Origin: Lysobacterales bacterium
Lineage (GTDB): Bacteria; Pseudomonadota; Gammaproteobacteria; Xanthomonadales; SZUA-5
DNA length: 33,556 nucleotides
Direction: 5' to 3'
Assembly (NCBI GenBank): GCA_020442775.1
Contig: JAGRJL010000100.1
Coordinates: 1 to 33,556 of the forward strand
The notes beneath the pieces were generated by a model. The model did not search any database, was not told the DNA's origin, and saw only the letters and a program-made list of their open reading frames with translations. Positions 4,282-29,581 of this stretch are shown here, one piece after another. The translations under genes and the position numbers were made by a program. Each line of letters opens with the position of its first letter. Position 1 is the stretch's first letter.

Positions 4282-4665
4282 AACTGGCTTGCGGCGGAGC
4301 TGGGCGCCCTGATTTCGGAACAGCGATCTGCCACCGGCGGCCATCTGACCGCCGTGGAGCTCAGGAGGTATCGGGGGACGTTCGGATATCAATCGCGCCC
4401 GTGATCGATTTTCTGACCAGTCAGTCGATCCGCCCTGCACAAGATCATCCGCCATTCCACGCGGGCGCCGCAGCGACAGTGGCCGAGTTGGCCGAGTGGG
4501 CAATAATCTGACGGGCGAGGGCGGTCAGGGACAGCGTTGCTTGGGGAGGGGGGTTGTCTGTCGGAGAACTGCTCAATCTCCATAGGCACATTCCTGCACT
4601 TCGAGGCAGTTGCCCTTTGCCCGTGAACGCGAACAGCGTCTGCAGCAGGGGGTGGGAAATCTGGG
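4282..4665. other. Intergenic stretch, REP-like segment
   Basis: No convincing gene. Positions 4552-4600 resemble 584-632 near the RAYT gene (shared TTGTCTGTC, GCTC and TAGG blocks with matching spacing). The rest shows nothing recognisable. Confidence 0.45.
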
Positions 4666-10543: not shown

Positions 10544-11824
10544 TCAGCGCCCGGGCAACAAAGGGGTCAAGGTCTCAAAGCCATCGACATGCAGCACTGG
10601 TTCGTAGGACAGGACCGTACCCGGGCTCAGGGCTGACACCAGGACCGGACTTCCGCTGCTGGCGATGCTGATTTCGTGCGCGCTGATCAAGTCGACAACG
10701 GTATCGGGGTCGCTGAGATCTGCGCATTGGAAAGAGCGCAGGTTGAGCAAGCCACTGGTGCTGTCGCGATCCATCTCGACCAGCGCGGCCAGCCACTGCA
10801 CCGTGGCATAAACGCGGCCGTTGTCGGGGGCCACGGCCACCCCATTGTCACCGGCGACCCCACCGCAGTTGATCGGGAGCCCGAAATCGTCCGGATTCGG
10901 CGCGGCCACAAAGCTGAGTTCACCGCTGCTGGTGTTGCGCGAGAAAATTCCCATCCAGTCATCAAAGCCCACCGTGCAGAAGGGCTGGCTGGGGGCGCCG
11001 AACTGGCCGACCGCATAGACGTGCTTGCCATCCGGACTGATTTCCAGATCGTTGACGCAACCCAGACCATCCACGCCGCCAACCCCATCAAACCAGGTAT
11101 TCAGGTAGCTCAAGGCGCCGGTTGCCGGGTTGCGGGTGAATCCGACCAGGGCCTGCGAGGTTTCTGCCGCCGCGTAGAGGTGGTTGCCGTCCGGGCTGAT
11201 CACGATACTTTCCGGCGCGTCCAGTCCCACAACTGGCGGGACCATGTTCTGATACACCGCGATCAGGGTGAGCATGCCGCTGCCACTGTCACGGGCAAAG
11301 GCCACGACCGCGTCGTCACTTCGCGCACCGACGTAGACATGGGCGCCATCCGGACTGACCAATACACTCATGGCACCACCGAGGCCGTCAAAGCTGCCTC
11401 CAGTGTTGAGGTCGAAGATGGCCTGGACCAGAGTCAGGGTTCCGCTGCCTGGCGCGCGCGCGAACACGCTGACCGCGCTGTCGCTCAGGGCGGCGCTGTA
11501 AACGTGCAATCCATCCGGGCTCACCGCCGCATCCCTTACGCCGGCCAGACTGGTGATTCCGTTCTGCCCATCAATCAGTTCCTGGAGCGGCGCCAGGGTT
11601 CCGCTGCCCGGATCCAGACTGAACACCACCAGGCCATTGTCCAGCGAGCCGGAGGCGTAGACGTTCAAGCCATCCGGACTGACCGCCATGCCGTAAGACC
11701 CGCGAAGGACGTTCACCCCGGGGCTCTCACCGTCGGCCTGACGATCCAGCAAAACCATTTGCGCATGCACCAGCGCAGGATGCAGCAGCAGGAAAGCCAG
11801 GAGCAGTCGATTCATCTTGGTCAT
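10544..11824 (-). CDS. Exported lactonase-like seven-bladed propeller protein
   Basis: 426 aa from ATG 11824 (ATG 11815 also possible), with a signal peptide (RLLLAFLLLHPALVHA). Six or more blades carry the repeated core (V/I)SPDG--(V/L)Y (VSPDGLNVYASG, VSPDGLHVYSAA, VSPDGAHVYVGA, ISPDGNHLYAAA, ISPDGKHVYAVG), and most are followed by a VFSLDPGSGTL or VFARAPGSGTL type strand. This is the pattern of the 6-phosphogluconolactonase-like beta-propeller superfamily (PF10282 type). A catalytic role is not supported; many exported members are structural. The C-terminus carries HVDGFE, the shared tail of this region, followed by ten residues. It is convergent with the 8493 gene, with only 8 bp between the stops. 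Confidence 0.87.
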   Translation of the reverse strand: MTKMNRLLLAFLLLHPALVHAQMVLLDRQADGESPGVNVLRGSYGMAVSPDGLNVYASGSLDNGLVVFSLDPGSGTLAPLQELIDGQNGITSLAGVRDAAVSPDGLHVYSAALSDSAVSVFARAPGSGTLTLVQAIFDLNTGGSFDGLGGAMSVLVSPDGAHVYVGARSDDAVVAFARDSGSGMLTLIAVYQNMVPPVVGLDAPESIVISPDGNHLYAAAETSQALVGFTRNPATGALSYLNTWFDGVGGVDGLGCVNDLEISPDGKHVYAVGQFGAPSQPFCTVGFDDWMGIFSRNTSSGELSFVAAPNPDDFGLPINCGGVAGDNGVAVAPDNGRVYATVQWLAALVEMDRDSTSGLLNLRSFQCADLSDPDTVVDLISAHEISIASSGSPVLVSALSPGTVLSYEPVLHVDGFETLTPLLPGR

Positions 11825-12123
11825 GCGGGTGCCCCGCAGTCAGCGCGTTTGGGCGGGTGGATTCAGTCTACTACGGCGCAGATTCGGGCGCAGAATGAAC
11901 CAAAGGCATTGCTGACCCGTATGCTGCTATCCAGGGGAATGTCCATTCCAACAACGCTGGTTGATGGTCTTCCCAAGTCCTGCTGTGCTGATTCCGGCAG
12001 CTGAGGACAGCGCTGCTGGTAGCTGCGGGATCGCTCTCTTGCTGGTGGGGCTTTTGGTTGACTCGTCACGGTGAGCTACCCTCAGGGCACCGGGTCAACG
12101 GGGCATGCCCCGCCCAGACATCT

Positions 12124-13125
12124 ATGGGAAAGATCACTTCGCGGTTCGTCCACAAGGTCCTGCGCCAGGTTGATACCGCGCTGGACAAGCGGGAGATTCT
12201 GCGCACGGTCGGCATCGATCCGGACGCGCAGGTCGATCCCCGGCAGATGGTGGACGATCACGACTACTACGCGTTCTATGAGCGCATGGCCAGGCTGGAC
12301 CCGCAGGGTCACAGCCTGTCGCTGCGGGTGGGTGAGTCGATGACGCCTGATGACTACGGCGCATTTGGTCTGGCCTGGAAGTCTGCATTGACCCCGCGTG
12401 ATTCCTGCGCGCGGCTGGCCAGGTATTCGTTCGTGCTGACCAGCGTGGCCGCCTACGAGATCATGGATACCGATCAGGGGATGAGAATGGTCCTCAACCG
12501 GGCAGGGCAGCGCCGCCTGGGGCTGCGACTGTCGAACGAGACGACGCTGGCTGCGATCGTGTCGATGTGCCGGCAGGTTTCGACCGGCTCGGTGCGGCCT
12601 GTGGAGGTCCATCTGAAGCATTCCGCGCCGGCAACCACGGGCGATCACGAGGTGTATTTCGGCTGCCCGATCTGCTTCGACTCCGACGCCGATGCCTTGC
12701 TGTTTGCGCACTCCGAGATGGCCCAGCCCAATCGGAAGGGTGATGCAGGCATCGTCCGCTTCATCGACCAGCATCTCGACGCGGAATTGGCCGGCATGCA
12801 GGACGACACCGCGCTCAATCGGCGGGTGAAGAATGCGGTCTCCAGCTCGCTCAGCGCGGGTGTACCGAAGATCTCCGCGGTGGCGGGTAGGCTGGGTATG
12901 AGCGGCCGCACCCTGCAGCGACGTCTGTCCGAACTGGGTATGTCCTACCAGGGCGTGGTTGATGACGCCCGCCGCGAGCTGTCGCTGTCGTTGCTCAGGG
13001 ATAGCGACTATCCGCTGGTGGAAGTGGCGTACCTGGTTGGCTTTTCCGAGCAAAGCGCGTTCAACCGGGCCTTTCGCCGCTGGGCCGGTGAGACTCCGCG
13101 ATCCTATCGTCTGCGCGCGAGCTGA
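12124..13125 (+). CDS. AraC-family transcriptional regulator
   Basis: 333 aa from ATG 12124. Residues 1-200 match the N-terminal domain of the ArgR/OruR-type AraC subgroup (arabinose-binding-like PF12625): opening KITSRFVHKVLRQ, then YYAFYERMARL and YGAFGLAWKSALTPRDS. Residues about 235-330 hold the two helix-turn-helix units, with ISAVAGRLGMSGRTLQRRL and VEVAYLVGFSEQSAFNRAF, and end in RWAGETPRSYR. It is followed 107 bp later by the NmrA-like gene on the same strand, its most likely target. Regulators of this subgroup usually respond to a small molecule; the ligand cannot be told from sequence. Confidence 0.92.
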   Translation: MGKITSRFVHKVLRQVDTALDKREILRTVGIDPDAQVDPRQMVDDHDYYAFYERMARLDPQGHSLSLRVGESMTPDDYGAFGLAWKSALTPRDSCARLARYSFVLTSVAAYEIMDTDQGMRMVLNRAGQRRLGLRLSNETTLAAIVSMCRQVSTGSVRPVEVHLKHSAPATTGDHEVYFGCPICFDSDADALLFAHSEMAQPNRKGDAGIVRFIDQHLDAELAGMQDDTALNRRVKNAVSSSLSAGVPKISAVAGRLGMSGRTLQRRLSELGMSYQGVVDDARRELSLSLLRDSDYPLVEVAYLVGFSEQSAFNRAFRRWAGETPRSYRLRAS

Positions 13126-13232
13126 TCTCCGCGCCTGGCAGCATCGGTCAGAACTCCGTCGTGACGGGTCAAGAGCCGCGTACCGATATTGCCGAGGATG
13201 GACTCGCCGATTCATCCAACGAGGAGTACATC

Positions 13233-14072
13233 ATGGCCAATACAAATATCGGAACCACGCTGGTACTGGGCGCGAGCGGAAAGACTGGACGTCGCATAGT
13301 GCAGCGGCTCCAGGCGCTCGGCGTGCCGGTGCGCAGCGGATCGCGCGCCGCGACCCCGTCTTTTGACTGGCACAACGAATCCGGTTGGGATGCGTGCCTG
13401 AACGGTGTCAGCCGCGTCTATATCAACTACGCGCCGGATCTGGCGATGCCTGGTGCCACCGATGCGATCGCCAGCCTGGTCGCAAAGGCCAGGCGGGCCG
13501 GGGTGAAAAAGCTGGTGCTGCTGTCCGGTCGAGGCGAGCAGGAAGCGCAGGCCTGCGAACAAATCGTGGCCGCAGGCGGGATTGACTGGACCGTCGTTCG
13601 CGCCAGCTGGTTCAACCAGAACTTCTCTGAAGGCGCGTTCATCGATATGGTGCTTGCCGGCAAGATCACCCTGCCGGCGAGCCAGACCGCCGAGCCCTAC
13701 GTCGATGCCGACGACATTGCTGAGGTCGCGGTGGCGGCGCTGACCGAGGAGGGGCACAACGGCAAGATCTACGAAGTGACCGGCCCGCGGCTGATGACGC
13801 TGGAAGAGGTTGCCGCCGAACTCTCGCGAGCGTGCGGCCGAACAGTGACCTATGTGCCGGTACCGCATGCCGCCTTCATCGAAGGTTTGAAACAATCCGG
13901 CGCGCCTGACGACGTGGTCTGGATGCTCGACTATCTGTTTGCGACGGTGCTCGACGGCCGCAACGCTCATCTGACCGATGGGGTGGCGCGTGCCCTTGGC
14001 CGCGCGCCAAAGGACTTCAGCGAGTACGCGCGCGAAGTGGCCGCGAGCGGACGCTGGCGCAGGGCTGCGTAG
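13233..14072 (+). CDS. NmrA-like NAD(P)-binding protein (atypical SDR)
   Basis: 279 aa from ATG 13233, preceded by AACGAGGAG at 13218-13226, a strong ribosome binding site. The N-terminus has the Rossmann dinucleotide motif VLGASGKTGRRIVQRL. This is the NmrA/azoreductase-like atypical short-chain dehydrogenase fold. VVRASWFNQNFSEG and the segment PYVDADDIAEVAVAAL are typical of this group (relatives of YtfG/QorB and of NmrA). The C-terminal part has KIYEVTGPRLMTLEEVAAELSRA. There is no canonical YxxxK catalytic pair visible in the usual place, as is usual for NmrA-like proteins. The AraC-type regulator upstream probably controls it. Substrate unknown. Confidence 0.9.
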   Translation: MANTNIGTTLVLGASGKTGRRIVQRLQALGVPVRSGSRAATPSFDWHNESGWDACLNGVSRVYINYAPDLAMPGATDAIASLVAKARRAGVKKLVLLSGRGEQEAQACEQIVAAGGIDWTVVRASWFNQNFSEGAFIDMVLAGKITLPASQTAEPYVDADDIAEVAVAALTEEGHNGKIYEVTGPRLMTLEEVAAELSRACGRTVTYVPVPHAAFIEGLKQSGAPDDVVWMLDYLFATVLDGRNAHLTDGVARALGRAPKDFSEYAREVAASGRWRRAA

Positions 14073-14156
14073 GTCAGGCGATGGCTGAAGGCTCAGGTTT
14101 CGCGAGCTTCTGCCGGGCCTATCTGGTCGCGGCGGTGCAAGCTGGGGAATTGGGTT

Positions 14157-14190
14157 GCAGCCACCGAAAGCCCGTCCTTGCGGTGGCTGC
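14157..14190. terminator. Hairpin after the NmrA-like gene
   Basis: A perfect ten-base stem (14157-14166 with 14181-14190) and a 14-base loop, 85 bp after the stop of the 13233 gene. No T-run. Confidence 0.55.
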
Positions 14191-14239
14191 GACAATGCTT
14201 GGCCCTCTGGACCGGAGGGCTTCGCTCCGCGGTTTGCGT

Positions 14240-14257
14240 AGACTTGGAAACAAGTCT
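14240..14257. other. Hairpin with GAAA tetraloop
   Basis: AGACTTG (14240-14246) pairs perfectly with CAAGTCT (14251-14257) around a GAAA loop. It lies between two stronger hairpins in the gap between convergent genes and may be part of a composite termination region. Confidence 0.4.
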
Positions 14258-14276
14258 GCAGAGATTGACCGTCGGC

Positions 14277-14301
14277 GGCGGCCCGCGCATCGCGGGCCGC
14301 C
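14277..14301. terminator. GC-rich hairpin between convergent genes
   Basis: A perfect ten-base GC stem (GGCGGCCCGC at 14277-14286, GCGGGCCGCC at 14292-14301) with a five-base loop. It lies 33 bp past the stop of the minus-strand 14335 gene and is followed by TTC on the plus strand. Probably a bidirectional terminator. Confidence 0.7.
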
Positions 14302-14334
14302 TTCAGTCAGAACAGGAGTTTGTGTCCGTCGTAT

Positions 14335-16539
14335 CTACTGGTCGAAGCTGTCGCGGAACAGCGCTCCCGGTAGTTCGAGCAGGGCGATATTGGCGCTTGT
14401 TTCGGTTCCACCCTGATTGAAGCGACCGCCAACAAGCACCTTGTCTCCGCACAATGCCATGGCGCGGACTCTGGCGGGTGTTGCGCCGAACCCGTAGCTC
14501 ACGCCTTCACCCATGGCAGTCCATTGCCCGCTGTCGGGCTCGTAGCTGCCGATGCTCCACAAGGTGCTGTCGGCCATTTCAATGAAGTAGCCACCCACCA
14601 GGAGCGCCTCGTTTCTGTAGATCAACGAATGCATGTCTCGGTGGTAGCTGGTCTGTCCGCCGGGTGCACTCCATTGTCCGGTCGTCAGATCCAGTCTGGA
14701 CAGGTGAAAACGGAAGGTGGGGCCCAGCCCGGCGAGGCCGCCGACATAAAGCGACTGCCCGATCACGAGCATGCTTTGGACCTCGCCCGAAATCGTGGGG
14801 TCAGGGGTGTCCCAGGCATTCGTCTCGGGGTCAAAGCGGGCCAGACCAGGCGCGGTGATGCCGCCGGCTTCGGTGAAGCTCCCGGCGACAAACACCCCCT
14901 GGTCTGAACTGGTGATCACCAGGACCGTCTGATTGGCGCCTTCCTGGGCACCGCTTCCGAGTCTTTCCCAGGTGTCGGTGACCAGGTTGTAGCGAGCGAC
15001 TCTGCGTGCCGAAATGCCGCCAACCGAAGTGAAGTCGCCGCCGGCATAGAGATAGCTTCCATCGAGATGCAGTTCGCGCACAGAGCCACCGGGACTGCCG
15101 CCAGGGAGTGCTTCCCACTGACCTGTCGCGAAGCGAAATCGTGCCAGGTTCGGTGCATTGACACCGCCGACGCTAAAGAATCCCCCGCCGACATAGAGGT
15201 GATCAGGGGTTGCTGCCATGGCGCTCGTGAATGCGGAAAAGCTGTGGTTGGCAATGCCGCCAAGCGGATTGATCTGATGCGTGCGGCAGTCGATCTGCGC
15301 CATCTGTACCGCCAACTGGCCACCAATCTCGGTGAAGTCACCGCGGATGACGCCAATGTCTCCAGCTGAGACGATTTCGTAGATTTCCCCGTTGGCTCCG
15401 GTTGTCACGCCATCGCCTACGGGAACCCAGCTTCGGGTCGCCAGTTGCAGACGGGTAATACCGTGCTGGCTTTGCCCGTTTACCTTGCGAAAGCTCCCAC
15501 CGATGTAAAGGTACTGGCCCACATCGACCAGCCCGGAAATGAAGGTCGCGCTGTCGCCAACGCCTGAACCTATGGCTTGCCATCGATTCAGCGCCTCGTC
15601 GAAGCGTGCAATATTGATCGCGTGGACGCCGTCGATGATGGTGAACTCGCCTGTGGCATAGAGTTCGCCCCCGACAAGACGAAGCCTCCTGACAGTTTGC
15701 GCGGATGCGCTCCCCTGGCCGACCCTTCCCCAGATCTGAGAGCTTCGGTCGAATCTCGCAACGCCGTGGGTAGAGGCGCCGTTGATGGTCAGGAAGCCGC
15801 CGGACACGTAAACAGCATCGGAATCGGCAGTGATGGAGAGCACCGTTCCGTCAACGCCGCTACCCAACTGACGCCAGCTATGGCCCTGGCTGGGTGACAG
15901 CACGGCGACGTAGTTTGCCGAGATTCCGCCGATGGTTTGAAAGGGTCCACCGACGATCAGTTCGTCACCGTCGGTGTGAAGTGCGTAGATCGTACCTCCC
16001 GGCACCCCCAGGTCGGCCCAATCTCCGGTGACCGGATCGAAGCGCAGCAAGCCGGGGCTGCCAAACAGGATCGCGACGTAGACCTTTCCGGAAACGATCG
16101 CCATCGCCTCTACCCGGACATCCTCGGTTTGCTGCTGGAGGCTGCTGGGCACCACCCACGCACCAGAGATCAGATTCAAGTGGGCGAAGACTGAAGCTTC
16201 CGCGGCTCCGGGGACGGCCATGCTGCCGCCGCCCACATAGAGCTGGTCACCATCTCTGATCAGCTCTCTGACCGGTCCGCGGAACTCTGCGGCGAGCGAA
16301 AAGGCGGCGAACTGGTTGGTGACCGGGTCGTATTTGACCAGGCTGTTGGCTTCCACGCTGCCGCAAGCGGTGAAATAACCGCCAAGCAGTACCGAGCCGT
16401 CGTCCAGCGGGACTGCGGCATTGATTGGACCATTGCATCCGCGCCCATTCCAACCGAAACCGGTCCATTCGGCGGAAGGCGTCCCGGCCAGGCTGAGCTG
16501 AGCGAAAACGAGGAAAACAAGACCGAGCAAAAGGGGCAT
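14335..16539 (-). CDS. Exported Kelch/Rax2-like propeller protein, tandem copy A
   Basis: 734 aa. A signal peptide (MPLLLGLVFLVFAQLSLA) is followed by about a dozen repeats of 45-60 residues with the core L-VGG-F--(I/V)GG--A--(V/I)AR(F/Y), then a W--LGSG(V/A) strand (for example LYAGGDFTSVGGISARRVAR). This is the repeat type of Kelch/galactose-oxidase-like and Rax2-like propeller proteins, often found on bacterial surface proteins. The first Cys pair is CN and AC, flanking PLDDGSVLLGGYFT. It ends LPGALFRDSFDQ, the shared tail. The gene at 16865 has the same length and the same repeat order. Likely secreted or cell-surface; ligand unknown. No enzymatic motif. Confidence 0.9.
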   Translation of the reverse strand: MPLLLGLVFLVFAQLSLAGTPSAEWTGFGWNGRGCNGPINAAVPLDDGSVLLGGYFTACGSVEANSLVKYDPVTNQFAAFSLAAEFRGPVRELIRDGDQLYVGGGSMAVPGAAEASVFAHLNLISGAWVVPSSLQQQTEDVRVEAMAIVSGKVYVAILFGSPGLLRFDPVTGDWADLGVPGGTIYALHTDGDELIVGGPFQTIGGISANYVAVLSPSQGHSWRQLGSGVDGTVLSITADSDAVYVSGGFLTINGASTHGVARFDRSSQIWGRVGQGSASAQTVRRLRLVGGELYATGEFTIIDGVHAINIARFDEALNRWQAIGSGVGDSATFISGLVDVGQYLYIGGSFRKVNGQSQHGITRLQLATRSWVPVGDGVTTGANGEIYEIVSAGDIGVIRGDFTEIGGQLAVQMAQIDCRTHQINPLGGIANHSFSAFTSAMAATPDHLYVGGGFFSVGGVNAPNLARFRFATGQWEALPGGSPGGSVRELHLDGSYLYAGGDFTSVGGISARRVARYNLVTDTWERLGSGAQEGANQTVLVITSSDQGVFVAGSFTEAGGITAPGLARFDPETNAWDTPDPTISGEVQSMLVIGQSLYVGGLAGLGPTFRFHLSRLDLTTGQWSAPGGQTSYHRDMHSLIYRNEALLVGGYFIEMADSTLWSIGSYEPDSGQWTAMGEGVSYGFGATPARVRAMALCGDKVLVGGRFNQGGTETSANIALLELPGALFRDSFDQ

Positions 16540-16864
16540 GAGTTGGGCCCAGACCAGGGTGCGCGAACCGTGGCATGAAGCGGTAGATCACACAAGCTTG
16601 TGAGTCAGCGCCTTCTGCGGCTGGCGCCGGATTGCAATCGGGCCGGGACTGGGCCCTCACATATCGCGGGACTCACACTGCTTGCCCCGCTCGGCCTGGG
16701 GCATCATCGAAGTTCCGTACGCATGCAGCGGGCCGGACCTGGGCTCGGCCGATGATCGCTGGCCGCAACGCCTTTTGCATCAGCAAGGGAAAGGCGCTCG
16801 CGCTTGGCGCGAACTTTGGTCTCGAGCGGAAGCGCTGCTCAAGCCAATCTCGGCGTCATGATGA
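16540..16864. other. Gap between the tandem propeller genes
   Basis: No gene. It should hold the promoter of the 14335 gene. A perfect 12-base palindrome (CACAAGCTTGTG, 16591-16602) lies about 52 bp upstream of its start and is not seen before the other copy. The leaders of the two copies share a GGTTCGCGCA-CCT / GGTTCGCACATCCT segment read on the minus strand. Confidence 0.5.
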
Positions 16865-19069
16865 TCATTGGTCAAAGCTGTCACGAAAGAGCGGGCCGGG
16901 CAGATCCAGCAGGGCGATGTGAGGGCTGATCTCGCCGCCTGCCAGATTGAAGTTCCCGCCGACGACAATCTTGTCGCCACACGCGGCCATGGCCTTGATC
17001 GTTGCCGGATAGATGCCCAGACCATAGCTAACGCCTTCGCCCATCGCTGTCCATTCTCCGCTGCCGGGGTCAAGACTGGCGATGCTGGCCAAGGGAATGT
17101 CGGACATCTGGCTGAAGGTGCCGCCGACCAGCAATGCCTGATTTCGATAGATCAGCGTGTTGATGTCCCGGTTCACATTGCTGGTCCCGCCGGGCGCCGA
17201 CCATTCCCCCGTCAACAGATCGAGCTTGGCCAGGTGATAACGGAATGTAGGCCCAGGCGAATTGAGACCGCCGACATAGAGTGCGCGATCGACTACCGTC
17301 ATGGCGAAGGTCCTTCCTCTGGCATCGCCACCGGGCGCGCTCCAGTTGCCCGAAAGCGGATCGAACAGGGCCAATTTCGACGCGGGCACGCCTCCCGCTT
17401 CGTCAAAATCGCCGGCGGCAAAGACTCCTGCATCAGAGGAGGTGATCACGTATACCCGGTTGTCGGTGCCGTTTTGGACACCGCTGCCCAGGGTCTCCCA
17501 GGTATTGGACAGCAGGTTGTAGCGAGCGATATGTCGCGCTGAAATACCGCCTGCGCTGGTGAAGGCCCCGGCGGCGTAGAGGTAATTCCCATCGATGTGC
17601 AGATCGTAGACGAAGTTGTTTGGCCCGCCACCCGGCAGCCCTTCCCACACCCGCGTTGCCAGATTGAAGCGCGCGACGCGAGCCGCGGGAACCCCACCGA
17701 TGTCAAAGAAGCCGCCGCCCAGATAGAGATATTGGCTGTCCGCGGCCATGGCTGTGTAGTTGAACGAGAACTGCGGCGAAACCGCACCGCCAAGTGGGCT
17801 GATCTCATGCGTGGTGCAGTCCATTTGCGCAAACTGGGATGCAGCCGTGCCCCCAATCTGCGTGAAGTTGCCGCGGATCAATGCCAGATCGCCGCTGGTT
17901 ACGATTTCTTCGATGACATCGTTGGCTGCACCGGTGATGCCTTCGCCAACCGGAAGCCAGGATCGGGTCGGCGCATGCAGCCGCGCGATGCCAGGTTGGC
18001 TCTGACCGTTGACCTCACGGAATGAGCCGCCGAGGTACAGGTCAGACCCGACCACGGCGGAGGCCAGGATGAATGTGCCGAGTTCTCCGACCCCCGAACC
18101 CAATGCCTGCCAGCGGTTCAGGCTCGCATCAAAGCGCGCTACATGATTGGCCTGTATTCCATCGATCGAGGAAAAATCGCCTCCCGCGTAGAGCTCGCCA
18201 TCGACGACCCGGAGTTGGCGCACGGGGCCTGGGGAAACCACGCCCTGGCCCATCCGTTCCCAGGATTGGGTAGCGCGAGAAAATCGCGCGACATGATCTG
18301 TGGCCACTCCGCCGACCATGGAAAAGAATCCACCTGCATAGATGTAATCGGCATCCGAGGTGAGGGTCAGGACACCTTCGTCGATCGCATTCCCCAGTGC
18401 CGACCAGGTGTTTCCCTGGTTGGGGGAGTACACCGCGATGTCGTTTGCGGGGACGCCAGCGATGGACTCGAAGTTGCCGCCAACCAGAAGTCTGTCGCCG
18501 TCGGCATGGAGGGCGTAGATATCCTCGAAATTGACGCCGAGATTGATCCAGTCATCAATGCTGGGATCGAATCGCAACAGCGTGGGCTCTCCGAAGTCGA
18601 ACGCGACATAGATCTGGCCGGAAACCGCTGCCATGGCTTCGACGCGTATGTCGCCAACAGATGGCGGGGTGTTGGTTGGCACATGCCACTGACCCGTGGT
18701 CAGGTTCAGGTTGGCAAACAGCGCGGGCTCGGAAGCGCCCGGGATGGTCATTCCGCTTCCGCCAACGTACAGCACCTCACCAATGCGAATCAGCTCCTTG
18801 GCCGGTCCTCTGAAGCCCGAGCCTTGCGGAAAAACGGCGAACTGGTTGGTGTCAGGGAAATACTTCACCAGGCTGTTGGCGTCGACGTCGCCGCAAGCGG
18901 TGAAGCCACCACCGACCAGTACCGAACCGTCGTCCAGTTCCACCGCGCTGGAAAACGAGCCGCTGCAACCGCGTGCATTCCATCCAAATGCGGTCCAGTT
19001 GGCGTTCGGATTGCCGGCCATTGCGAGTTGGCAGAGGACCATGAGCATTAGCAACAAACAGGTGCGCAT
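16865..19069 (-). CDS. Exported Kelch/Rax2-like propeller protein, tandem copy B
   Basis: 734 aa from ATG 19069, chosen because it starts the signal peptide (MRTCLLLMLMVLCQLAMA) and gives exactly the length of copy A; the frame is open to 19189 without signal character. Repeat content and order match copy A almost blade for blade: WTAFGWNARGCSGSFSSAV against WTGFGWNGRGCNGPINAAV at the N-terminus, IDGIQANHVARFDASLNRW against IDGVHAINIARFDEALNRW in the middle, and LPGPLFRDSFDQ against LPGALFRDSFDQ at the end. More than half the aligned residues agree by eye. This is a tandem duplication that has diverged, with length held constant, so both copies seem to be under selection. Same predicted export and surface role as copy A. 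Confidence 0.92.
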   Translation of the reverse strand: MRTCLLLMLMVLCQLAMAGNPNANWTAFGWNARGCSGSFSSAVELDDGSVLVGGGFTACGDVDANSLVKYFPDTNQFAVFPQGSGFRGPAKELIRIGEVLYVGGSGMTIPGASEPALFANLNLTTGQWHVPTNTPPSVGDIRVEAMAAVSGQIYVAFDFGEPTLLRFDPSIDDWINLGVNFEDIYALHADGDRLLVGGNFESIAGVPANDIAVYSPNQGNTWSALGNAIDEGVLTLTSDADYIYAGGFFSMVGGVATDHVARFSRATQSWERMGQGVVSPGPVRQLRVVDGELYAGGDFSSIDGIQANHVARFDASLNRWQALGSGVGELGTFILASAVVGSDLYLGGSFREVNGQSQPGIARLHAPTRSWLPVGEGITGAANDVIEEIVTSGDLALIRGNFTQIGGTAASQFAQMDCTTHEISPLGGAVSPQFSFNYTAMAADSQYLYLGGGFFDIGGVPAARVARFNLATRVWEGLPGGGPNNFVYDLHIDGNYLYAAGAFTSAGGISARHIARYNLLSNTWETLGSGVQNGTDNRVYVITSSDAGVFAAGDFDEAGGVPASKLALFDPLSGNWSAPGGDARGRTFAMTVVDRALYVGGLNSPGPTFRYHLAKLDLLTGEWSAPGGTSNVNRDINTLIYRNQALLVGGTFSQMSDIPLASIASLDPGSGEWTAMGEGVSYGLGIYPATIKAMAACGDKIVVGGNFNLAGGEISPHIALLDLPGPLFRDSFDQ

Positions 19070-19182
19070 TGGTGGGATCCTGGTGAGGATGTGCGAACCT
19101 GCCAGAGATGCACGGAACAGGCAATCAGCGTACAAACAACCCGAATTCAACCCGAATTGGACACCCTGACGGCAATGCACTG

Positions 19183-19443
19183 ATGGCAAGGCAGATGCTC
19201 ATCATTCACGGTTGTACCGATGCCTATGCGGCATCGGAGCAGGGCGTCTGCGCGGAGCTGATCCACGACCAGCTGCTATACAACGTCTCAGAATCCGTAG
19301 GCCTTGCCAGGGCGATCGCCCGAGGGGAACGGGTCTCGCTGATGGTTCCGCCGGGGCTGGAGCCCGAGTTGCTGCTTCACAAGTTCAGCAAGCTGGGCCT
19401 GAATTGTGCGATGGATTACACCCAGTCCGCACCCGTGGCGTAG
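19183..19443 (+). CDS. Small protein of unknown function
   Basis: 86 aa from ATG 19183, on the strand opposite to the propeller gene and starting 114 bp from it. The frame is open further upstream but overlaps the leader of the 19069 gene. The sequence (RQMLIIHGCTDAYAASEQG, then ELIHDQLLYNVSESVGLARAI, then GLEPELLLHKFSKLGLNCAMDY) is globular in composition with alternating strands and helices. The last part has a faint likeness to the L7/L12 C-terminal fold, too weak to name. No signal peptide or membrane segment. No ribosome binding site is obvious, so it may be spurious. Confidence 0.5.
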   Translation: MARQMLIIHGCTDAYAASEQGVCAELIHDQLLYNVSESVGLARAIARGERVSLMVPPGLEPELLLHKFSKLGLNCAMDYTQSAPVA

Positions 19444-19774
19444 GAACTTCGCGGGCTCTTTGCCGGCGATTGTCCAGCCGTTGCGTCGATCACCGATGCG
19501 AGCTTGCGCTGCGCGATCGCACTGCGGGTGCAGCGCGTGGATGCCCGGAGCTCGCCCATTCGTGGGCAAAGTCCGGCGAGGAGAGCGCAGGAAATCACAG
19601 CCTGATCACCGCGTGGGAGTTGGTCGTTCGGCCACCGGATGAGCTACACGGCAGGTTTAACCCTGTGCGCAGCTTCTTGCCGAGTCGTTGTCTGGCGGCA
19701 TCGGGATGGGGCCGGACCCATGCACGATCTCCCTGGGTGGCACTGAGCAGCGCGACCCCCCCCCCAGGGCCCGA
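19444..19774. other. Intergenic stretch with a C10 tract
   Basis: No convincing gene. A run of ten C (19756-19765) begins nine bases beyond the stop of the minus-strand 19775 gene. A small GCCCA-TTCG-TGGGC hairpin sits near 19556. Nothing else recognisable. Confidence 0.5.
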
Positions 19775-21349
19775 CTATCGAAGCTGATCAAGCGAATGCT
19801 GGCGGACCGGGTTGTCACCTTCCATCCCGTCGGCAAATATTGCCTCCGGCGTTCCGTAGATGACGTAGGCGCGACCGGTCGAGGAGAACCTGGGGGCGTC
19901 CGCCGCACCGATGACCACGTCCGCCAGGCCATCGCCGTTGAGATCTCCCGAACCGGCAACGGTGGAACCTGCCCGGTCCAGCCGCTCCACGCCGTCAACC
20001 TTGTAGCCGTTACGACCGTCCAGCAACGCTAAAGGAAACTCCGAGGGGAAAGGCCCTGCGTGGCCGTAAACGACATAACTCCTTCCTTGATCGGTGACTG
20101 GAAGCGCCGAGGCGGCACCGATCACGAGGTCGTCGAATCCGTCGCCATTCAGATCGCCAGCGCCGCTGATCGAGTTGCCGGACTTGTCGCGAAAGATCTC
20201 GCCGTCCAGCTTGAAGCCATCGCTACCGTCCAGGGTCCCCATCAGGATCGCGTCGGGAAACGATTCTGATCTGCCGAAAAGCAGGTAAGAGCGGCCGGTT
20301 CTAAGGTCCGCTCCGGTCGCACTCGTGGCGCCGACCATCAGGTCGTCGAGACCATCGCCATTGAAGTCGCCGACACCGCTGACCGTTTCGCCGAACCTGC
20401 CTCCTTCTCCGACCATCTCAAAGCCCTGCAATGGATCCAGTTCACCCAGAAGGAGAGGGGGCGCGAACTCATCATTGGTGGAGGGGCGACCGTACACGAC
20501 GTAGCTGCGGCCCAGGTTCTGAAACGCCGCGCCAATCAGAATGTCGTCGTAGTCGTCGCCATTGAAGTCACCAATGCCCGCCATGGCGATTCCGGAGAGA
20601 TCGTCGGGCTGTCCGTCAATCCGCAGGACCTGCGCGCCGGACAAGTCGGCCAGGTTTCGTGTAGCCGGCACCGGGTCCGTGGTTCCGTAGATCACATAGG
20701 TCCGGCCGCGAAGTTCGTTGTGGGAACCCTCGTATGGCTCGCTGACCAGGAGATCAGCCAGGCCATCGCCGTTGAAATCGCCGGCGCTGGACACTGTGAA
20801 GCCGGCGCCCATGTTGTCGGCCCCGATCAGTCGGAATCCGTCGGTGCCGTCCAGATCGAGTACGTTGACGACGGGGTCGAAAGGGGTTGCCCGACCGAAG
20901 ATCACATAGCAGCGTCCGGCCAGTTCACCCGTCGGTGAGCCCACGACCATGTCGTCAAAACCGTCCCCGTTGATGTCTCCCAATCCACTCGCCGCAAACC
21001 CAAGTTGGTGGAAGTTCTCCAATCCATTGATCTCAAAACCATTGGTGCCGTCGAGATTTGCTAGGGGGACTGCTGCAGGGCGGGCTGTACGGGTCCCGAA
21101 CAACACATAGACCCTGCTGCCGGAGGGCGCTCCGATGATCAGATCGTTGATGCCATCGCCATTGATATCGGCGATGGTCGACATGGACGCGCTGGTTCTT
21201 GCACTGTTGATCGCGCCGTCGATACGAAAGCCGTTGCTGCCGTCAAGGTCACCCAGATTCAACAGCGGGGTGCCTGCAAAGGCACATGAACTGATCCATA
21301 GCGCTGCAAGGGCCAGACTTGTCCTTCCATGCTGATAGGGTTTGATCAC
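19775..21349 (-). CDS. Exported integrin-alpha-like FG-GAP protein
   Basis: 524 aa with a signal peptide (MIKPYQHGRTSLALAALWISSCAFA). Seven FG-GAP repeats of about 65-70 residues follow, each with a calcium-loop core of the form D-NGDG--D-(L/M)-(V/I)G: DINGDGINDLIIGAP, DINGDGFDDMVVGSP, DFNGDGLADLLVSEP, DFNGDDYDDILIGAA, DFNGDGLDDLMVGAT, DLNGDGFDDLVIGAA and DLNGDGLADVVIGAA. The second half of each repeat is GRSYVVYGR or similar, and the start is LDGTDGF-(I/L)-G. Seven copies fit the seven-bladed fold of integrin alpha subunits. The C-terminus has IFADGMEGD, the shared tail, then 14 more residues. Likely secreted or surface-bound with an adhesive role by analogy; ligand unknown. Confidence 0.92.
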   Translation of the reverse strand: MIKPYQHGRTSLALAALWISSCAFAGTPLLNLGDLDGSNGFRIDGAINSARTSASMSTIADINGDGINDLIIGAPSGSRVYVLFGTRTARPAAVPLANLDGTNGFEINGLENFHQLGFAASGLGDINGDGFDDMVVGSPTGELAGRCYVIFGRATPFDPVVNVLDLDGTDGFRLIGADNMGAGFTVSSAGDFNGDGLADLLVSEPYEGSHNELRGRTYVIYGTTDPVPATRNLADLSGAQVLRIDGQPDDLSGIAMAGIGDFNGDDYDDILIGAAFQNLGRSYVVYGRPSTNDEFAPPLLLGELDPLQGFEMVGEGGRFGETVSGVGDFNGDGLDDLMVGATSATGADLRTGRSYLLFGRSESFPDAILMGTLDGSDGFKLDGEIFRDKSGNSISGAGDLNGDGFDDLVIGAASALPVTDQGRSYVVYGHAGPFPSEFPLALLDGRNGYKVDGVERLDRAGSTVAGSGDLNGDGLADVVIGAADAPRFSSTGRAYVIYGTPEAIFADGMEGDNPVRQHSLDQLR

Positions 21350-21776
21350 AAAAATTCGCTCCAGTCGGCTTGAATGCTTGGGTGCGGTCGGACGCTAGCA
21401 TGCCCATTCGGAACACGAAATCCCGCCGCTTTAGGAGGTGCTTCGCCCCACGCTCAGCATTCGGCTGAGCGATTTTTGGGTGCTGCGCAGTTCGCGGCAC
21501 ACTCCTGCCGCGGTCCTGCGTGGGTGCGGAGCGATCGCGGGCTGACGGCTTTGAGCAGCGGTTTTCGAGTCAGGAATAGTGGAACGGAACTCGAGAAGAT
21601 CGGTGCGACTGTTGAAGATCAGGGAGCGGACTGGATCGTCATTGCGACAGGCGACTTCCAGATGCGCTCCCGGAAAGGTGAATAGGGAATGCCCCGCGGC
21701 TCTGCAGAGTCCTCGGCCATGCTCGCGGGCGTTGCATTCCGCTACTCTACACACAGCACACTTCAGGGCGATTCCC
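21350..21776. other. Intergenic stretch between divergent propeller genes
   Basis: No convincing gene. It should carry the promoters of the 19775 and 21777 genes. Positions 21537-21605 resemble 26555-26627 (shared CTGAC, GAGCAGCGG, TTT, GTC-GGAA-AG and CTCG blocks). Confidence 0.5.
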
Positions 21777-24059
21777 ATGCGCTTCGATGGATGGGTAAGT
21801 CCGCTAGCGATCTTGCTGGCCGCGGGAATGGCGTTCGCTGCGCAGGCACAAACGGTTGGCGGCCGCTGGGAGGTGCTGGGTCCAGGCCCGATCCTCAACG
21901 GTCAGGTTGAGGGGATCGACGGTGGCGAAGTGGTGGGTGCGGTCAATACCATCGCAGCCCATCCCACCGACGCCGACGTGCTGTTCGCTGGCGGCGCCAA
22001 CGGCGGTATCTGGCGTACCGACAACGCAACCGCGCTCTCTCCAACCTGGGTCAGTCAAGCCGAAAATATCGGCTCACTGGCGATCGGGGCGATCGAGTTC
22101 GATCCGACCGACCCATCCCATCAGACCTTGATCGCGGGGACCGCTCAGGTCTCCAGCGTCAACTACGGTGGCCCGCGTATCGGCATGTTGCGAACCACCG
22201 ATGGCGGCGCGAACTGGCAGTTGATCAATCCTGACGGCGTGCTTGACAATCGCGATGTCTTTGGTGTTGCTGCGCGCGGGAGCATCCTGGTCGCGGGTAC
22301 CTCGGCAGGCGTTTATCGCTCAACCGACTCCGGCGACACGCTGGCGATGGTTTCCGGTGCGCCAGGAACCGGGCTGCCGGTCGGCAAGGTCGCTGACCTG
22401 GCCAGCGACCCCAGCAACATCGACGTGCTCTATGTTCCGGTAACCGAGGGGAGCGCCCGCGGCATTTATCGTTCGGGTGATCGCGGTGCGACCTGGGTGA
22501 AAGTCTCTGACCAGGCGATCGATGACCTCCTCAACATGATCTCGCGCAAGACCGAGATCGCGGTAGGCAACGCTGGTCAGGTTTACGTCGGCATCATTGA
22601 ACGGTTTGAGTTGGTCGGAGTCTTTCGCTCCGCCGATGGACTCAGCCCCTGGACTTCGCTGGGCCTCCCCACAACGGTGGAGGAGGGCGGCGTTGCCATC
22701 GGGATACACGCCGGTGGCCAGGGCTACATCCACTTCTCGATCGTCGCTGATCCGGGCAACAGCAACATCGTCTACCTCGGGGGCGACCGCCAGCCGGAGT
22801 TCGGCGCAGGGGTGCCCGGGAGCAAGCTGACGTTTCCCAACTCGATTGGGGCAAATGACTACTCGGGCCGTCTGTTTCGCGGAGATGCCTCGCTGCCGGC
22901 CGATAGCCGCTGGGTGCCGCTCACCCATGTGGGAACCGCCAACAATTCTTCACCCCATGCCGACTCGCGCGACATGGCATTCGATGCGCTGGGTAATCTG
23001 ATCGAATCCAGCGATGGTGGCGTCTATAAACGTACCCAGCCAGGGAATGCCTCCGGCGTTTGGGTTTCGATCAACGGCAGCCTGCAAACGACCGAGTACC
23101 GCGGAGCCGATTGGGATGCCGTATCCGGTCGGGTGATGGGTGGGGCGCAGGACAACGGAACTTCCGAGTCGGTTGTGCCGGCTTCGGCCATTTTCGATTC
23201 GGTTTCAAACGCAGACGGTGGCGACCCTGCGGTGCAGGATCGGACCTCCGCGACCCAATCGACGCGCTATTCCAGTCACCAGGTGCTGTACAGATTTCAG
23301 CGCCGTACGGTGGATGCTGCCAACAACGTCCTCACCGCGGCCTTTCCGGAGCTGGCACCGCTGGCTGGCAGCCCGCCGCTCTCCGGTCAGTTCTATACCC
23401 CGATTGCGGTGCACTACAGTGATCCGTCGCGGCTGATCTTCGGCGCGAGCAACGGCGTTTATGAGACATTCGACCGCGGCGACACGGTTGCTCTGGTCAG
23501 TAACCGGCGAGTGAATGCCGCCGATGCCAATCCAATGGTCTACGGGGCGATTGGCGATCCGGAGCTGATCTATTTTGCTGCCGACCTGGAACTCTACTTG
23601 CGAAGCTCGGCTAGCGGCGGGAGCTTTGCCCAGCTGCTGAGCCTGCCTGAAGTCCCGCGCGATCTGGACATTGATCGCGATGCGCCGACGCGGTTGTTCG
23701 CGATGACCCGAAACAACATCCTTTTTTCAAGCGACGGCGGCGGGAGCTTTGTCGACATCACCGGAAACCTGACAGCCTTGAGCCCAAACGGCACCTTGCG
23801 AACGATGGCCTACCTGACCGGCAAGGACATGCTGGCTGTCGGCACGTTGACAGCCGGGACCTTTGTTTCCATGGGCACCTCCGGATTTGGCCAATGGCAG
23901 CCGTTGGGAACCGACTTGCCCAGCGTGCCGATATCGGAATTGAGCTACGACGACGTCGACCAACTGCTGGTAGCAGCGACGCTCGGTCGCGGTGCCTGGA
24001 GATTGGAAACAGGCGACATTCCAGTGGACCGCGTTCTTGCTGACGGATTCGAAGGATGA
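21777..24059 (+). CDS. Exported BNR/sortilin-like propeller protein
   Basis: 760 aa from ATG 21777, chosen for its signal peptide (MRFDGWVSPLAILLAAGMAFAAQA); the frame is open to 21579 without signal character. It then begins GGRWEVLGPGPI, the usual opening of exported glycosyl-hydrolase-like or sortilin-like propellers. BNR-type Asp-box motifs are spread along it: GMLRTTDGGANWQLI, GVYRSTDSGDTLAMV, GIYRSGDRGATWVKV, NILFSSDGGGSFVDI. These motifs occur in sialidases, VPS10/sortilin domains and xyloglucanase-like exported proteins; I see no catalytic sialidase residues to assign a reaction. The end is VLADGFEG, the shared tail. Its stop overlaps the next start (ATGA), so the two are translated together. 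Confidence 0.9.
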   Translation: MRFDGWVSPLAILLAAGMAFAAQAQTVGGRWEVLGPGPILNGQVEGIDGGEVVGAVNTIAAHPTDADVLFAGGANGGIWRTDNATALSPTWVSQAENIGSLAIGAIEFDPTDPSHQTLIAGTAQVSSVNYGGPRIGMLRTTDGGANWQLINPDGVLDNRDVFGVAARGSILVAGTSAGVYRSTDSGDTLAMVSGAPGTGLPVGKVADLASDPSNIDVLYVPVTEGSARGIYRSGDRGATWVKVSDQAIDDLLNMISRKTEIAVGNAGQVYVGIIERFELVGVFRSADGLSPWTSLGLPTTVEEGGVAIGIHAGGQGYIHFSIVADPGNSNIVYLGGDRQPEFGAGVPGSKLTFPNSIGANDYSGRLFRGDASLPADSRWVPLTHVGTANNSSPHADSRDMAFDALGNLIESSDGGVYKRTQPGNASGVWVSINGSLQTTEYRGADWDAVSGRVMGGAQDNGTSESVVPASAIFDSVSNADGGDPAVQDRTSATQSTRYSSHQVLYRFQRRTVDAANNVLTAAFPELAPLAGSPPLSGQFYTPIAVHYSDPSRLIFGASNGVYETFDRGDTVALVSNRRVNAADANPMVYGAIGDPELIYFAADLELYLRSSASGGSFAQLLSLPEVPRDLDIDRDAPTRLFAMTRNNILFSSDGGGSFVDITGNLTALSPNGTLRTMAYLTGKDMLAVGTLTAGTFVSMGTSGFGQWQPLGTDLPSVPISELSYDDVDQLLVAATLGRGAWRLETGDIPVDRVLADGFEG

Positions 24060-25054
24060 GCTCGACCAAAGCCACCGCTGTGACTGATTCGTGGGCGTGG
24101 CGCTCGAGCGCCCGGGTGATTGCATTGTTGACCATCGTGATTGCGGTACTCGGGATTGGCAACGCCCAAGCGACCACCGTCTCTTCGCTCAGTCCCGGGG
24201 TGCTGATTGATGTGGATCGGGGGTTGGCCTGGGTCGCCGACGCGGGAGGCCGGACACTGGCGCTGAAACTGACCGACGGCAACTCGCTTTGGCGCAGCGG
24301 CGAAGCGGCATTCCCGTTGACCGTATTGGATGATCGACTGCTGGCCCTCGGCAGCCCGGGAGCGCCCGGGCAGGCCGTGGTTCTGTTGATGTTGCCTGAT
24401 AGCGGCGAGATCATTGATCGGGTCAACGTTGAGCTGCCGGATACGATTCGGGGTGAAGTTGGGGCCTATCCCAGAGGCCAGTTCGAAGTCATCGCCGAAC
24501 ATTTGGGGCGAACTGTACGGATCCATTGGCAATACCGATCAAGATCTGCGTATGCGCCGATCGCGGAGGATTCCGACGGGGCTGCGATGGTTGAGGAACG
24601 ATTGGCTGGTGCGGTCCAGATCGATTTCAACGACGGCCGGGCATCTGCCGTGTCGCTTCCCGCCGACACCGATCCGCCGACTCTGGCGGTTCGGGTCGCT
24701 GCCGCCGGTCAGCGGATCGCCGCGGTTCCCGGGCGGCAGTTTCTCGCAGCCGCTGGCGGCGCGGTCCTGGTCAGCGAGTTGCTGGATGTTGACTCAAGCT
24801 TTCCCTATCAATGGTCCCTCTACAGCGCTGCCCATTCGCGCCTGGGCAGCCTGCGCGCCGCCACTTCACGGGCCGATTTCATCGCGATTGGGGAGAGGAT
24901 CTACTACCACAGCCCGGCCTATGGGTTCAGGAACGACCGCTCGCTGTGGCAGGAAACAGCGGAAAGGCTGGTGGCCGTCGACCTGCGCTCCGGGACAGAG
25001 CTCTGGGCAGTTGCGCTGCTTGACCTGGTCTACCGCGGGCCGATGCCGCCCTGA
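24056..25054 (+). CDS. Exported or membrane-anchored PQQ-like propeller protein
   Basis: 332 aa. ATG 24056 overlaps the stop of the 21777 gene as ATGA, which implies translational coupling and a shared role. The first 40 residues hold a long basic leader and a hydrophobic segment (ARVIALLTIVIAVLGIGNAQA), a signal peptide or anchor. The rest has PQQ-type blades: VSSLSPGVLIDVDRGLAWVAD, RTLALKLTDGNSLWRSG, and near the end RLVAVDLRSGTELWAVALL. It is too short for a complete eight-bladed PQQ propeller and has no dehydrogenase residues. It lacks the D-G-F-E tail. Role unknown; perhaps an accessory to the preceding propeller protein. Confidence 0.82.
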   Translation: MSSTKATAVTDSWAWRSSARVIALLTIVIAVLGIGNAQATTVSSLSPGVLIDVDRGLAWVADAGGRTLALKLTDGNSLWRSGEAAFPLTVLDDRLLALGSPGAPGQAVVLLMLPDSGEIIDRVNVELPDTIRGEVGAYPRGQFEVIAEHLGRTVRIHWQYRSRSAYAPIAEDSDGAAMVEERLAGAVQIDFNDGRASAVSLPADTDPPTLAVRVAAAGQRIAAVPGRQFLAAAGGAVLVSELLDVDSSFPYQWSLYSAAHSRLGSLRAATSRADFIAIGERIYYHSPAYGFRNDRSLWQETAERLVAVDLRSGTELWAVALLDLVYRGPMPP

Positions 25055-28480: not shown

Positions 28481-28686
28481 GGTTCCTCCTTGCGGTCGGT
28501 GTTCACCAGGTTTGTAACACTCCCACGACCGGAAATCTCGATCGGGCGATCCCCCGGGGTTGATTTCGGCTGCGTCGGATCAGCAGCCTTGCGCTGCCGG
28601 AATAGTGCAAGGAAGGGTCGAATGTTGGAGCCAGGTTGCCGCCAGTGGGACGAATGCGCGCTTTTTGACACGCCCCCGGCAGTTCA

Positions 28687-28700
28687 CCCTGCCACTGTTG
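28687..28700 (+). promoter_or_regulatory. Leader element shared by the two tandem small genes
   Basis: CCCTGCCACTGTTG here and CCCTGCCAGTGTTG at 29166-29179 differ at one position and lie 28-29 bp upstream of the two start codons. It may be a promoter box or operator retained in the duplication. Confidence 0.45.
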
Positions 28701-28727
28701 ATAGCGACAAAGCGAAGGGAAAGATTC

Positions 28728-29105
28728 ATGACCAGATTCCTGCTAGGCGCACTGGCGCTGACGGCATCACTGACAGTATTGGCCGACCAACCGGCCCAGC
28801 CTTCCGGCACCGAGAGCAGCCCAGAAGTGAAGACGCTTCCCGAGGTTGCGACCGAAGACAAGAACAATGGCAATTCCCTGTCGGCCACGCTGGAAAGGGG
28901 CATGGACAACCAGGGACTGACGATGGAAGAGAAGTGGGATCATGACACCATCGTGTGCAAGCGAATGGCCACCTCCGGCAGTCGACTCGGGAGGAAGGTC
29001 TGCCACAGTCGGGCGGAATGGCGCGCGATGCGTGAGAACGGACGGGAAGTGACGCGTTCGGTTCAAGCCCGCGACCCGGGCAAGGAATACCACGAGAAGC
29101 AATAG
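28728..29105 (+). CDS. Small exported protein, GSRL/VC-R-EW family (copy 2)
   Basis: 125 aa from ATG 28728 with AAGGGA before it. Signal peptide: MTRFLLGALALTASLTVLA. A charged, Pro-rich linker (PEVKTLPEVATEDKNNG) leads to the conserved domain: SLSATLERGMDNQGLTMEEK, then TIVCKRMATSGSRLGRKVC and RAEWRAMRENGRE. Two Cys are likely disulfide-bonded. It differs from the next gene mainly in the linker and the tail, so the pair is a recent tandem duplication. The upstream CCCTGCCACTGTTG (28687-28700) recurs before the next gene at the same distance from the start. Predicted periplasmic; function unknown. Confidence 0.85.
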   Translation: MTRFLLGALALTASLTVLADQPAQPSGTESSPEVKTLPEVATEDKNNGNSLSATLERGMDNQGLTMEEKWDHDTIVCKRMATSGSRLGRKVCHSRAEWRAMRENGREVTRSVQARDPGKEYHEKQ

Positions 29106-29206
29106 CCGCCGCCAACTCGGCACCGCCACAGAGGCTGATCAGTCCGCGCTGAATGTTTGGGTGTACCCTGCCAGTGTTGGGAGGGTTAACCAGTAAGGAG
29201 AGGATC

Positions 29207-29581
29207 ATGATCAGATCACTACTCGGCGCCTTGGCAATGACCGCCTCGATGGCGGTGCTGGCCGATGAACCAGTCGAACCCACCTCATCTGATAGCGGGG
29301 CAGAGGTCAAAACCCTCCCCGAAGTCCAGAGCGAGGATGAGAACAACGGAAACTCGCTGTCTTCTACCCTGGAGCGGGGTATGGACAACAAGGGTCTGAC
29401 GATGGAAGAGAAGTGGGACAACGACACCATCGTCTGCAAGCGTATGGCCACTTCAGGCAGCCGGCTGGGTCGCAAGGTCTGCCACAGCCGTGGCGAATGG
29501 CGGGCGATGCGCGAGAACGGTCGCGAGACCACCCGTCAGATCCAGCGCCGCGATATGGGTTTGGAGGACCACGAGGGCTGA
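29207..29581 (+). CDS. Small exported protein, GSRL/VC-R-EW family (copy 3)
   Basis: 124 aa from ATG 29207, with AAGGAGAGG before it. Signal peptide: MIRSLLGALAMTASMAVLA. The linker is more acidic than in copy 2 (EVQSEDENNG). The conserved domain is nearly identical: LERGMDNKGLTMEEKWDND, then TIVCKRMATSGSRLGRKVC, then SRGEWRAMRENGRETTR. The gap to copy 2 is about 100 bp and holds its own copy of the CCCTGCCAGTGTTG leader element (29166-29179), so each may have its own promoter. Function unknown. Confidence 0.85.
   Translation: MIRSLLGALAMTASMAVLADEPVEPTSSDSGAEVKTLPEVQSEDENNGNSLSSTLERGMDNKGLTMEEKWDNDTIVCKRMATSGSRLGRKVCHSRGEWRAMRENGRETTRQIQRRDMGLEDHEG

Follow-up and report, generated by a model that had tools for sequence, protein, structure and literature searches.

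A conserved C-terminal D-G-F-E tail on exported proteins of the order Lysobacterales and its association with a type II secretion system

A stretch of 33,556 nucleotides from the genome of a Lysobacterales bacterium (contig JAGRJL010000100.1), referred to below as the window, encodes five exported proteins that end in a similar short tail. The best form of this tail is [ILV]-F-x-D-G-F-E, located no more than about 20 residues from the stop codon. Sequence comparison indicates that it is a real, order-wide and previously unnamed C-terminal tag, which very likely acts as a targeting signal. Its distribution follows that of one type II secretion system (T2SS), named here S-type, which is represented by a gspC-D-E-F locus with a PDZ-domain GspC and a GspD similar to those of Vibrio, Klebsiella and Pseudomonas; the tail may be an address label read by this system. 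The explanation that we favour, with a probability of roughly 0.6, is that the tail serves as a soluble tag at the C-terminus by which substrates are targeted to the S-type T2SS.

The tail motif and its carriers

In the genome to which the window belongs, the DNA pattern for FxDGFE was found at 27 sites, and the reversed control pattern at none. Of the 27 sites, 23–24 are no more than 24 residues away from an in-frame stop codon, and I, L or V nearly always precedes the motif; the C-terminal enrichment expected from the original prediction, made from the letters of the window, was thus observed. The residue before F in 44 strict C-terminal copies is L in 20, I in 17 and V in 4 cases, the x position is free and mostly occupied by A or S, and residues following E are mostly polar or proline. 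Seventeen of the 44 copies end exactly at E, followed by the stop codon, and the rest have 1–18 further residues, often with proline at the end. A transmembrane helix and basic residues were not found after the motif, the tail ending at E or in a short polar or proline-containing extension. Because synonymous codons for the fixed residues vary freely between copies, selection acts on the protein; a DNA- or RNA-level element was ruled out by this variation, and chance or composition as the source of the motif was ruled out by the reversed-pattern control.

Some copies are arranged differently. In L014 (contig C325 of the same genome, about position 13169) a long protein begins with a signal peptide directly followed by FYDGFE-GD, so that the motif stands at the mature N-terminus. 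In L016 (contig C358, about position 4504) LFADGFE is internal, between two parts of a protein that perhaps arose by fusion of a tailed protein to a repeat protein. Tandem tails at one C-terminus, for example IFSNGFESDIIFKNGFE and VIFKDGFDEFIDLIFADGFE, are present at the end of L108 and in genome G070 (C1:225702-225768, C2:363478-363542 and C5:172858-172921).

Two hundred genomes of the order Lysobacterales/Xanthomonadales were analyzed, in which genomes, families and genera are labelled G, f and g. Each genome has 0–70 tail-like sequences and 0–4 matches to the reversed pattern, while the genomes of 271 other gammaproteobacteria are near background, none of them being outstanding. Among the carriers of genes ending in IFADGFE and a stop codon are Dokdonella, Tahibacter, Chiayiivirga, Pseudofulvimonas, Pseudolysobacter, Marinicella, Wenzhouxiangella and many metagenome-assembled genomes of Lysobacterales.

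The expectation that carriers are exported proteins was borne out: by a strict heuristic rule, signal peptides were detected in 32 of 39 full-length IFADGFE genes versus 58 of 224 control open reading frames (ORFs) from these loci (p about 3e-11), and in several of the seven genes missed by the rule a signal peptide can be recognized by eye. A laxer rule called 60% of the controls positive, and the stricter one was used instead. The 39 carriers match 40 Pfam families, including subtilase, M14, M64, trypsin, phosphoesterase, di-haem peroxidase, GSDH, beta-helix, cadherin, FG-GAP and BNR, with no family found in more than five carriers. In NCBIfam, matches were obtained to choice-of-anchor Q, CSLREA, rhombotarget A and rhombosortase-dependent M36, i.e., to families with different anchors in other bacteria. 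Alignment of the 39 carriers revealed invariant residues only in IFADGFE, the criterion of their selection, the conserved part being seven residues long.

Homologues of di-haem peroxidase are untailed in 13 of 14 genomes with the S-type T2SS, and nearly all members of this family are untailed in genomes with and without this system alike. Since most of these homologues, and also the exported window proteins encoded at 8493 and 24056, have no tail, the tail is selective. No named model for it was found in NCBIfam (isolated tails) or in NCBIfam and Pfam (whole proteins), although HMMER filters may drop very short matches; as far as these scans can tell, the original prediction was right that no named CTERM family corresponds to the tail. 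A description of the motif was not found in the literature searched.

Type II secretion systems and the distribution of the tail

A scan for GspD gave a match in 198 of the 200 genomes and revealed two kinds of this protein, S-type and Xps-like. The S-type GspD is nearest in sequence to the solved canonical GspD structures, and the accompanying GspC contains T2SSC and PDZ domains; in the Xps-like T2SS, gspD is located at the end of the cluster. The S-type GspD query splits the 200 genomes into matches with E below 1e-110 and above 1e-40, except for fragments and the Xcs-like genes of family f2. The PDZ-GspC model retrieved the same genome set plus G120 and G164, fragmented assemblies in which GspD is broken or lost. 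By our reading of the gene neighbours, the S-type locus (L150, L161–L168) includes only gspC-D-E-F, followed in several cases by ftsE-ftsX, response-regulator-like and ung-like genes.

For comparison with the S-type T2SS, tails with D-G-F-E and with the variant D-R-F-E, described below, were counted together in genomes at least 98% complete, with a threshold of six tails. At least six tails were found in 42 genomes with the S-type T2SS and fewer in three, whereas none of the genomes without it reached this number and 73 had fewer. The corresponding split at the genus level is 33/2 against 5/28. When D-G-F-E tails alone are counted, the S-type system is encoded in 69 of the 77 genomes with at least five tails. 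The contrast is also observed within families: in f12, four genomes with the S-type T2SS have 7–33 tails and 31 genomes without it have 0–3, and in f2 the sole genome with this system has 52 tails and the 35 others 0–1. Genome G019 (100% complete), belonging to the tail-rich family f9, contains no GspD and no tails above chance. Tail-rich genomes encode GspD, nearly always of the S-type, the exception being the fragmented assembly G174. The proposal that the tail is a common sorting, secretion or processing signal, co-occurring with a particular secretion gene, is supported at the level of sequence by its C-terminal position, its enrichment in exported proteins and its co-occurrence with the gsp gene set of one T2SS.

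Other partners were considered as well. Any T2SS as the partner was ruled out by the match to GspD in 198 of 200 genomes, and the Xps-like T2SS by the presence of its GspD in tail-rich and tail-poor genomes alike. A search by gene neighbourhood revealed unrelated housekeeping genes at 77 named loci and no recurrent partner; within T2SS loci (20 kb), tail genes were present at chance level only.

The genus g13 has the S-type T2SS yet is nearly devoid of D-G-F-E tails. A variant was therefore sought, and a looser pattern revealed F-x-D-R-F-E tails, so that the expectation of tails in such genomes was borne out. A dedicated scan for D-R-F-E gave up to 64 copies per genome in g13, 28 in the neighbouring genus g61, a handful in a third genus of family f10 and background counts elsewhere. 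We suspect that the genus with D-R-F-E comprises relatives of Wenzhouxiangella. A proteome-wide change from D-G-F-E to D-R-F-E is the expected effect of a co-evolving receptor. When S-type GspC and GspD of f10 members with D-R-F-E and with D-G-F-E were compared, columns without a common residue made up 12 of 152 in GspD N1 and GspC PDZ versus 14 of 464 elsewhere (p 0.012), and several of the D-R-F-E-specific columns are gains of acidic residues. This clustering is only suggestive, a lead rather than proof that these domains read the tail. In L247 (G086), L248 (G180) and L249 (G198), which belong to the D-R-F-E genus and have few or no tails, GspC is more divergent (model E about 1e-35 versus 1e-56 to 1e-100 in tail-rich members), as if relaxed.

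Tailed proteins of the window

The five tails of the original prediction were found where it had placed them (Table 1), each of them far from chance. Scoring was carried out with a profile built from strict FxDGFE copies of other loci only, and the probability refers to the C-terminal 25 residues of a random protein; for the window tails it is 2e-5 to 1e-3 per protein. The pattern first proposed, hydrophobic-x-D-(G/S)-(F/M)-(E/D), was correct in pointing to a shared tail, and its exact form gives way to the consensus [ILV]-F-x-D-G-F-E. This consensus is complete in none of the five window copies, every one of which departs from it by at least one residue. The tailed proteins differ in fold, as had been noticed, and are represented by lactonase-type, Rax2/DUF5122/Kelch, FG-GAP and BNR/sortilin-like propellers according to Pfam and NCBIfam. 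The proteins encoded at 14335 and 16865 are paralogues, and their LFRDSFD tails were therefore counted once.

Table 1. Tail copies, tailed genes and tail-free genes of the window; p is the chance probability of the tail score
Feature	Position	Strand	Details
Tail copy LHVDGFE	10574..10594	-	In the lactonase-like propeller protein, 9 residues from its C-terminal end; p=5.7e-5 for a single random C-terminus
Tailed exported lactonase-type beta-propeller protein	10544..11824	-	Pfam PF10282 3.6e-26; signal peptide MTKMNRLLLAFLLLHPALVHA
Tail copy LFRDSFD, then Q and stop	14341..14361	-	p=9.6e-4
Tailed exported Rax2/DUF5122/Kelch propeller protein	14335..16539	-	Pfam PF12768 3.5e-40, PF17164
Tail copy LFRDSFD, then Q and stop	16871..16891	-	Counterpart of the copy in the 14335 paralogue; p=9.6e-4
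Tailed exported Rax2/DUF5122/Kelch propeller protein	16865..19069	-	Pfam PF12768 1.1e-32; signal peptide MRTCLLLMLMVLCQLAMAG
Tail copy IFADGME	19820..19840	-	14 residues before the C-terminus; p=2e-5
Tailed exported FG-GAP propeller protein	19775..21349	-	Pfam PF01839 1.1e-51
Tail copy VLADGFE, then G and stop	24033..24053	+	p=6.3e-5
Tailed exported BNR/sortilin-like (F510_1955-like) propeller protein	21777..24059	+	NCBIfam NF045728 4e-24, under its cut-off; signal peptide MRFDGWVSPLAILLAAGMAFAAQA
Contrast: exported FG-GAP/YncE-like protein without tail	8493..10535	+	p=0.45
Contrast: exported PQQ/BamB-like protein without tail	24056..25054	+	p=0.29

N-terminal signal peptides are present in all five tailed proteins after correction of two starts, from 21579 to 21777 (M67 of the ORF) and, for the gene at 16865, to about 19069 (M41 of the listed ORF). 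The two contrast proteins also have signal peptides, and their tail scores are at background, in agreement with the initial view of them as a tail-free contrast. An AlphaFold model of the 19775 protein, built with five sequences as input, has a mean predicted local distance difference test (pLDDT) score of 53, with about 30 in the tail and values below 50 in residues 502-524; the model is too poor to place the tail.

Among other features of the window, three paralogous small exported proteins with a common C-terminal part are encoded at 3808-4281, 28560-29105 and 29153-29581, all on the plus strand, and two of them share MEEKWDxDTIVCKRMATSGSRLGRKVCHSRxEWRAMRENGRE in this part. An ORF at 30319-31146 on the minus strand, judged by eye only, resembles an IS3-type transposase (integrase core).

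Possible roles of the tail and comparison with known systems

Under the targeting explanation, folded Sec-exported proteins with many different folds would have acquired the tag convergently within the order. Such a protein would pass the inner membrane via Sec and fold in the periplasm, as the signal peptides suggest; periplasmic components of the T2SS, most likely the PDZ domain of GspC and/or N1 of GspD, would bind its flexible tail, free past the last fold element; and the protein would then be moved through GspD to the surface or the medium. Flexible peptides at a C-terminus are natural ligands of PDZ domains. In Erwinia/Dickeya and Vibrio, published work suggests that the PDZ domain of GspC and the N-terminal region of GspD are the specificity parts of the T2SS (PMC12369372, PMC7949064). 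According to a review, the recognition signals of the T2SS have yet to be worked out and apparently vary (PMC5449463), and in recent work they are called composite or still unidentified (PMC7949064, PMC13393428). The more specific proposal, that the tail is a portable seven-residue linear signal read by GspC PDZ and GspD N1, with its code switched from D-G-F-E to D-R-F-E throughout the secretome of one lineage, is tentative, and we consider it rather less probable than its negation.

A number of observations weigh against the targeting explanation. The association is a correlation, not corrected for phylogeny, and the contrast may come down to perhaps four independent losses of the S-type T2SS, namely in the core of f2, the core of f12, f8 and the f9 genome G019. 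Tail genes are, as a rule, not located beside the T2SS. Family f8 has true tails without the S-type system: about 20 matches were found in G063 (97% complete), in which neither S-type GspD nor GspC was detected, and fewer in G094, G168 and others. Conversely, G064, G086, G124 and G153 have the S-type T2SS and no tails. The receptor-residue argument is weak, being a single clade contrast, and G160 has R-type residues in GspD and GspC but mostly G tails.

The main alternative, which we regard as unlikely, is a surface-retention signal acting after or together with passage through the T2SS. It would keep the protein on the outer membrane or lead to its attachment to a surface anchor in the manner of GlyGly-CTERM/rhombosortase, without a transmembrane segment. 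This alternative would produce the same association with the S-type T2SS, is consistent with the tandem tails of L108 and G070 and with the many carriers in families whose names refer to various surface anchors (choice-of-anchor Q, CSLREA, rhombotarget A, rhombosortase-dependent M36), and finds a parallel in Wenzhouxiangella AB-CW3, which excreted no proteolytic activity and for which outer-membrane proteases were inferred by the authors (PMC7691419). The tail, however, lacks a transmembrane helix, a basic cluster and any Cys or Gly-Gly on which a known sortase could act, and no partner enzyme was found, nor was any sortase-type family profiled. Shared ancestry is improbable; under it, the order would have had both the tail and the S-type T2SS from early on, and a few lineages would have lost the two jointly for unrelated reasons. 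The small number of independent losses behind the contrast and the retention of some tails without the S-type system in f8 agree with it; against it are G019, which lost every GspD within a tail-rich family and has no tails above chance, families f2 and f12, in which the S-type system is kept only where tails are kept (five genomes of five genera), and the variant tail in seemingly tail-free genomes with this system.

A processing or stability signal, for example for a periplasmic tail-specific protease or chaperone, with only an indirect link to the T2SS, appears more improbable still. The position at the very end, with the above share of strict copies at E-stop and extensions that are short and often proline-ending, would suit it; however, 0–18 residues follow E, and with this variation in length no fixed C-terminal carboxylate is read. 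Tail-specific proteases of this sort are, as far as is known, general and would not account for the patchy spread. Least probable, with a likelihood close to nil, is a structural element devoid of a targeting role, for instance a strand that caps the fold or a remnant of the F-x-D-G-F-E-S-G strand with which choice-of-anchor J/MAM-like jelly rolls begin. The motif presumably resembles strand 1 of these jelly rolls, and the copies behind the signal peptide in L014 and inside L016 are in keeping with this; yet the tail comes after finished domains of many folds, and in the AlphaFold model of the 19775 protein it remains at low pLDDT, though the whole model is poor.

The choice of folded substrates by the T2SS is a long-standing question, which a short shared tag with a genome-wide change of code would make directly testable. 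If the tail is indeed a targeting tag, the secretome of a large environmental group could be catalogued from sequence data, and protein export would gain a transferable tag.

Among known systems, the GlyGly-CTERM/rhombosortase system (VesB of Vibrio) is similar in that a C-terminal tag linked to the T2SS is present on many unrelated Sec-exported proteins, and some tail carriers match rhombosortase-linked families. GlyGly-CTERM consists of a Gly/Ser motif, a hydrophobic helix and a basic end and is cut by a rhomboid protease (PMC6219818), whereas the D-G-F-E tail has none of these three elements. The tags of PEP-CTERM/exosortase and MYXO-CTERM/myxosortase are short C-terminal sorting signals, present in dozens per genome and patchily distributed, which suits them for phylogenetic profiling (PMC1569441, PMC11980579). 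The D-G-F-E tail resembles them in length, number and patchiness by genome, but they consist of three parts, include a transmembrane helix and have a membrane protease as the partner, while the tail is soluble and its best correlate is a T2SS. As a short conserved C-terminal motif on many unrelated exported proteins it is like the CTERM tags; it was not filed among them because the defining anatomy, a helix with a basic end after the motif, is absent. The features of T2SS substrates, a Sec/Tat signal peptide (by the heuristic counts given above) and a T2SS encoded in the genome, are present. In the type IX secretion system of Bacteroidota, a C-terminal domain on Sec-exported proteins is the signal for passage of the outer membrane; that domain is folded and comprises about 70–100 residues, unlike the seven-residue linear motif of these gammaproteobacteria. 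In the T2SS of Dickeya and Vibrio (PelI, Pel3 and the Ig-fold of VesB), a flexible element of the substrate is read by GspC PDZ and the N-domains of GspD (PMC5449463, PMC7949064, PMC12369372). The D-G-F-E tail would likewise be a flexible element read by GspC and GspD, but in those systems every substrate has a signal of its own, in the form of composite loops or an Ig-like fold, whereas here one linear tag is found on dozens of unrelated proteins.

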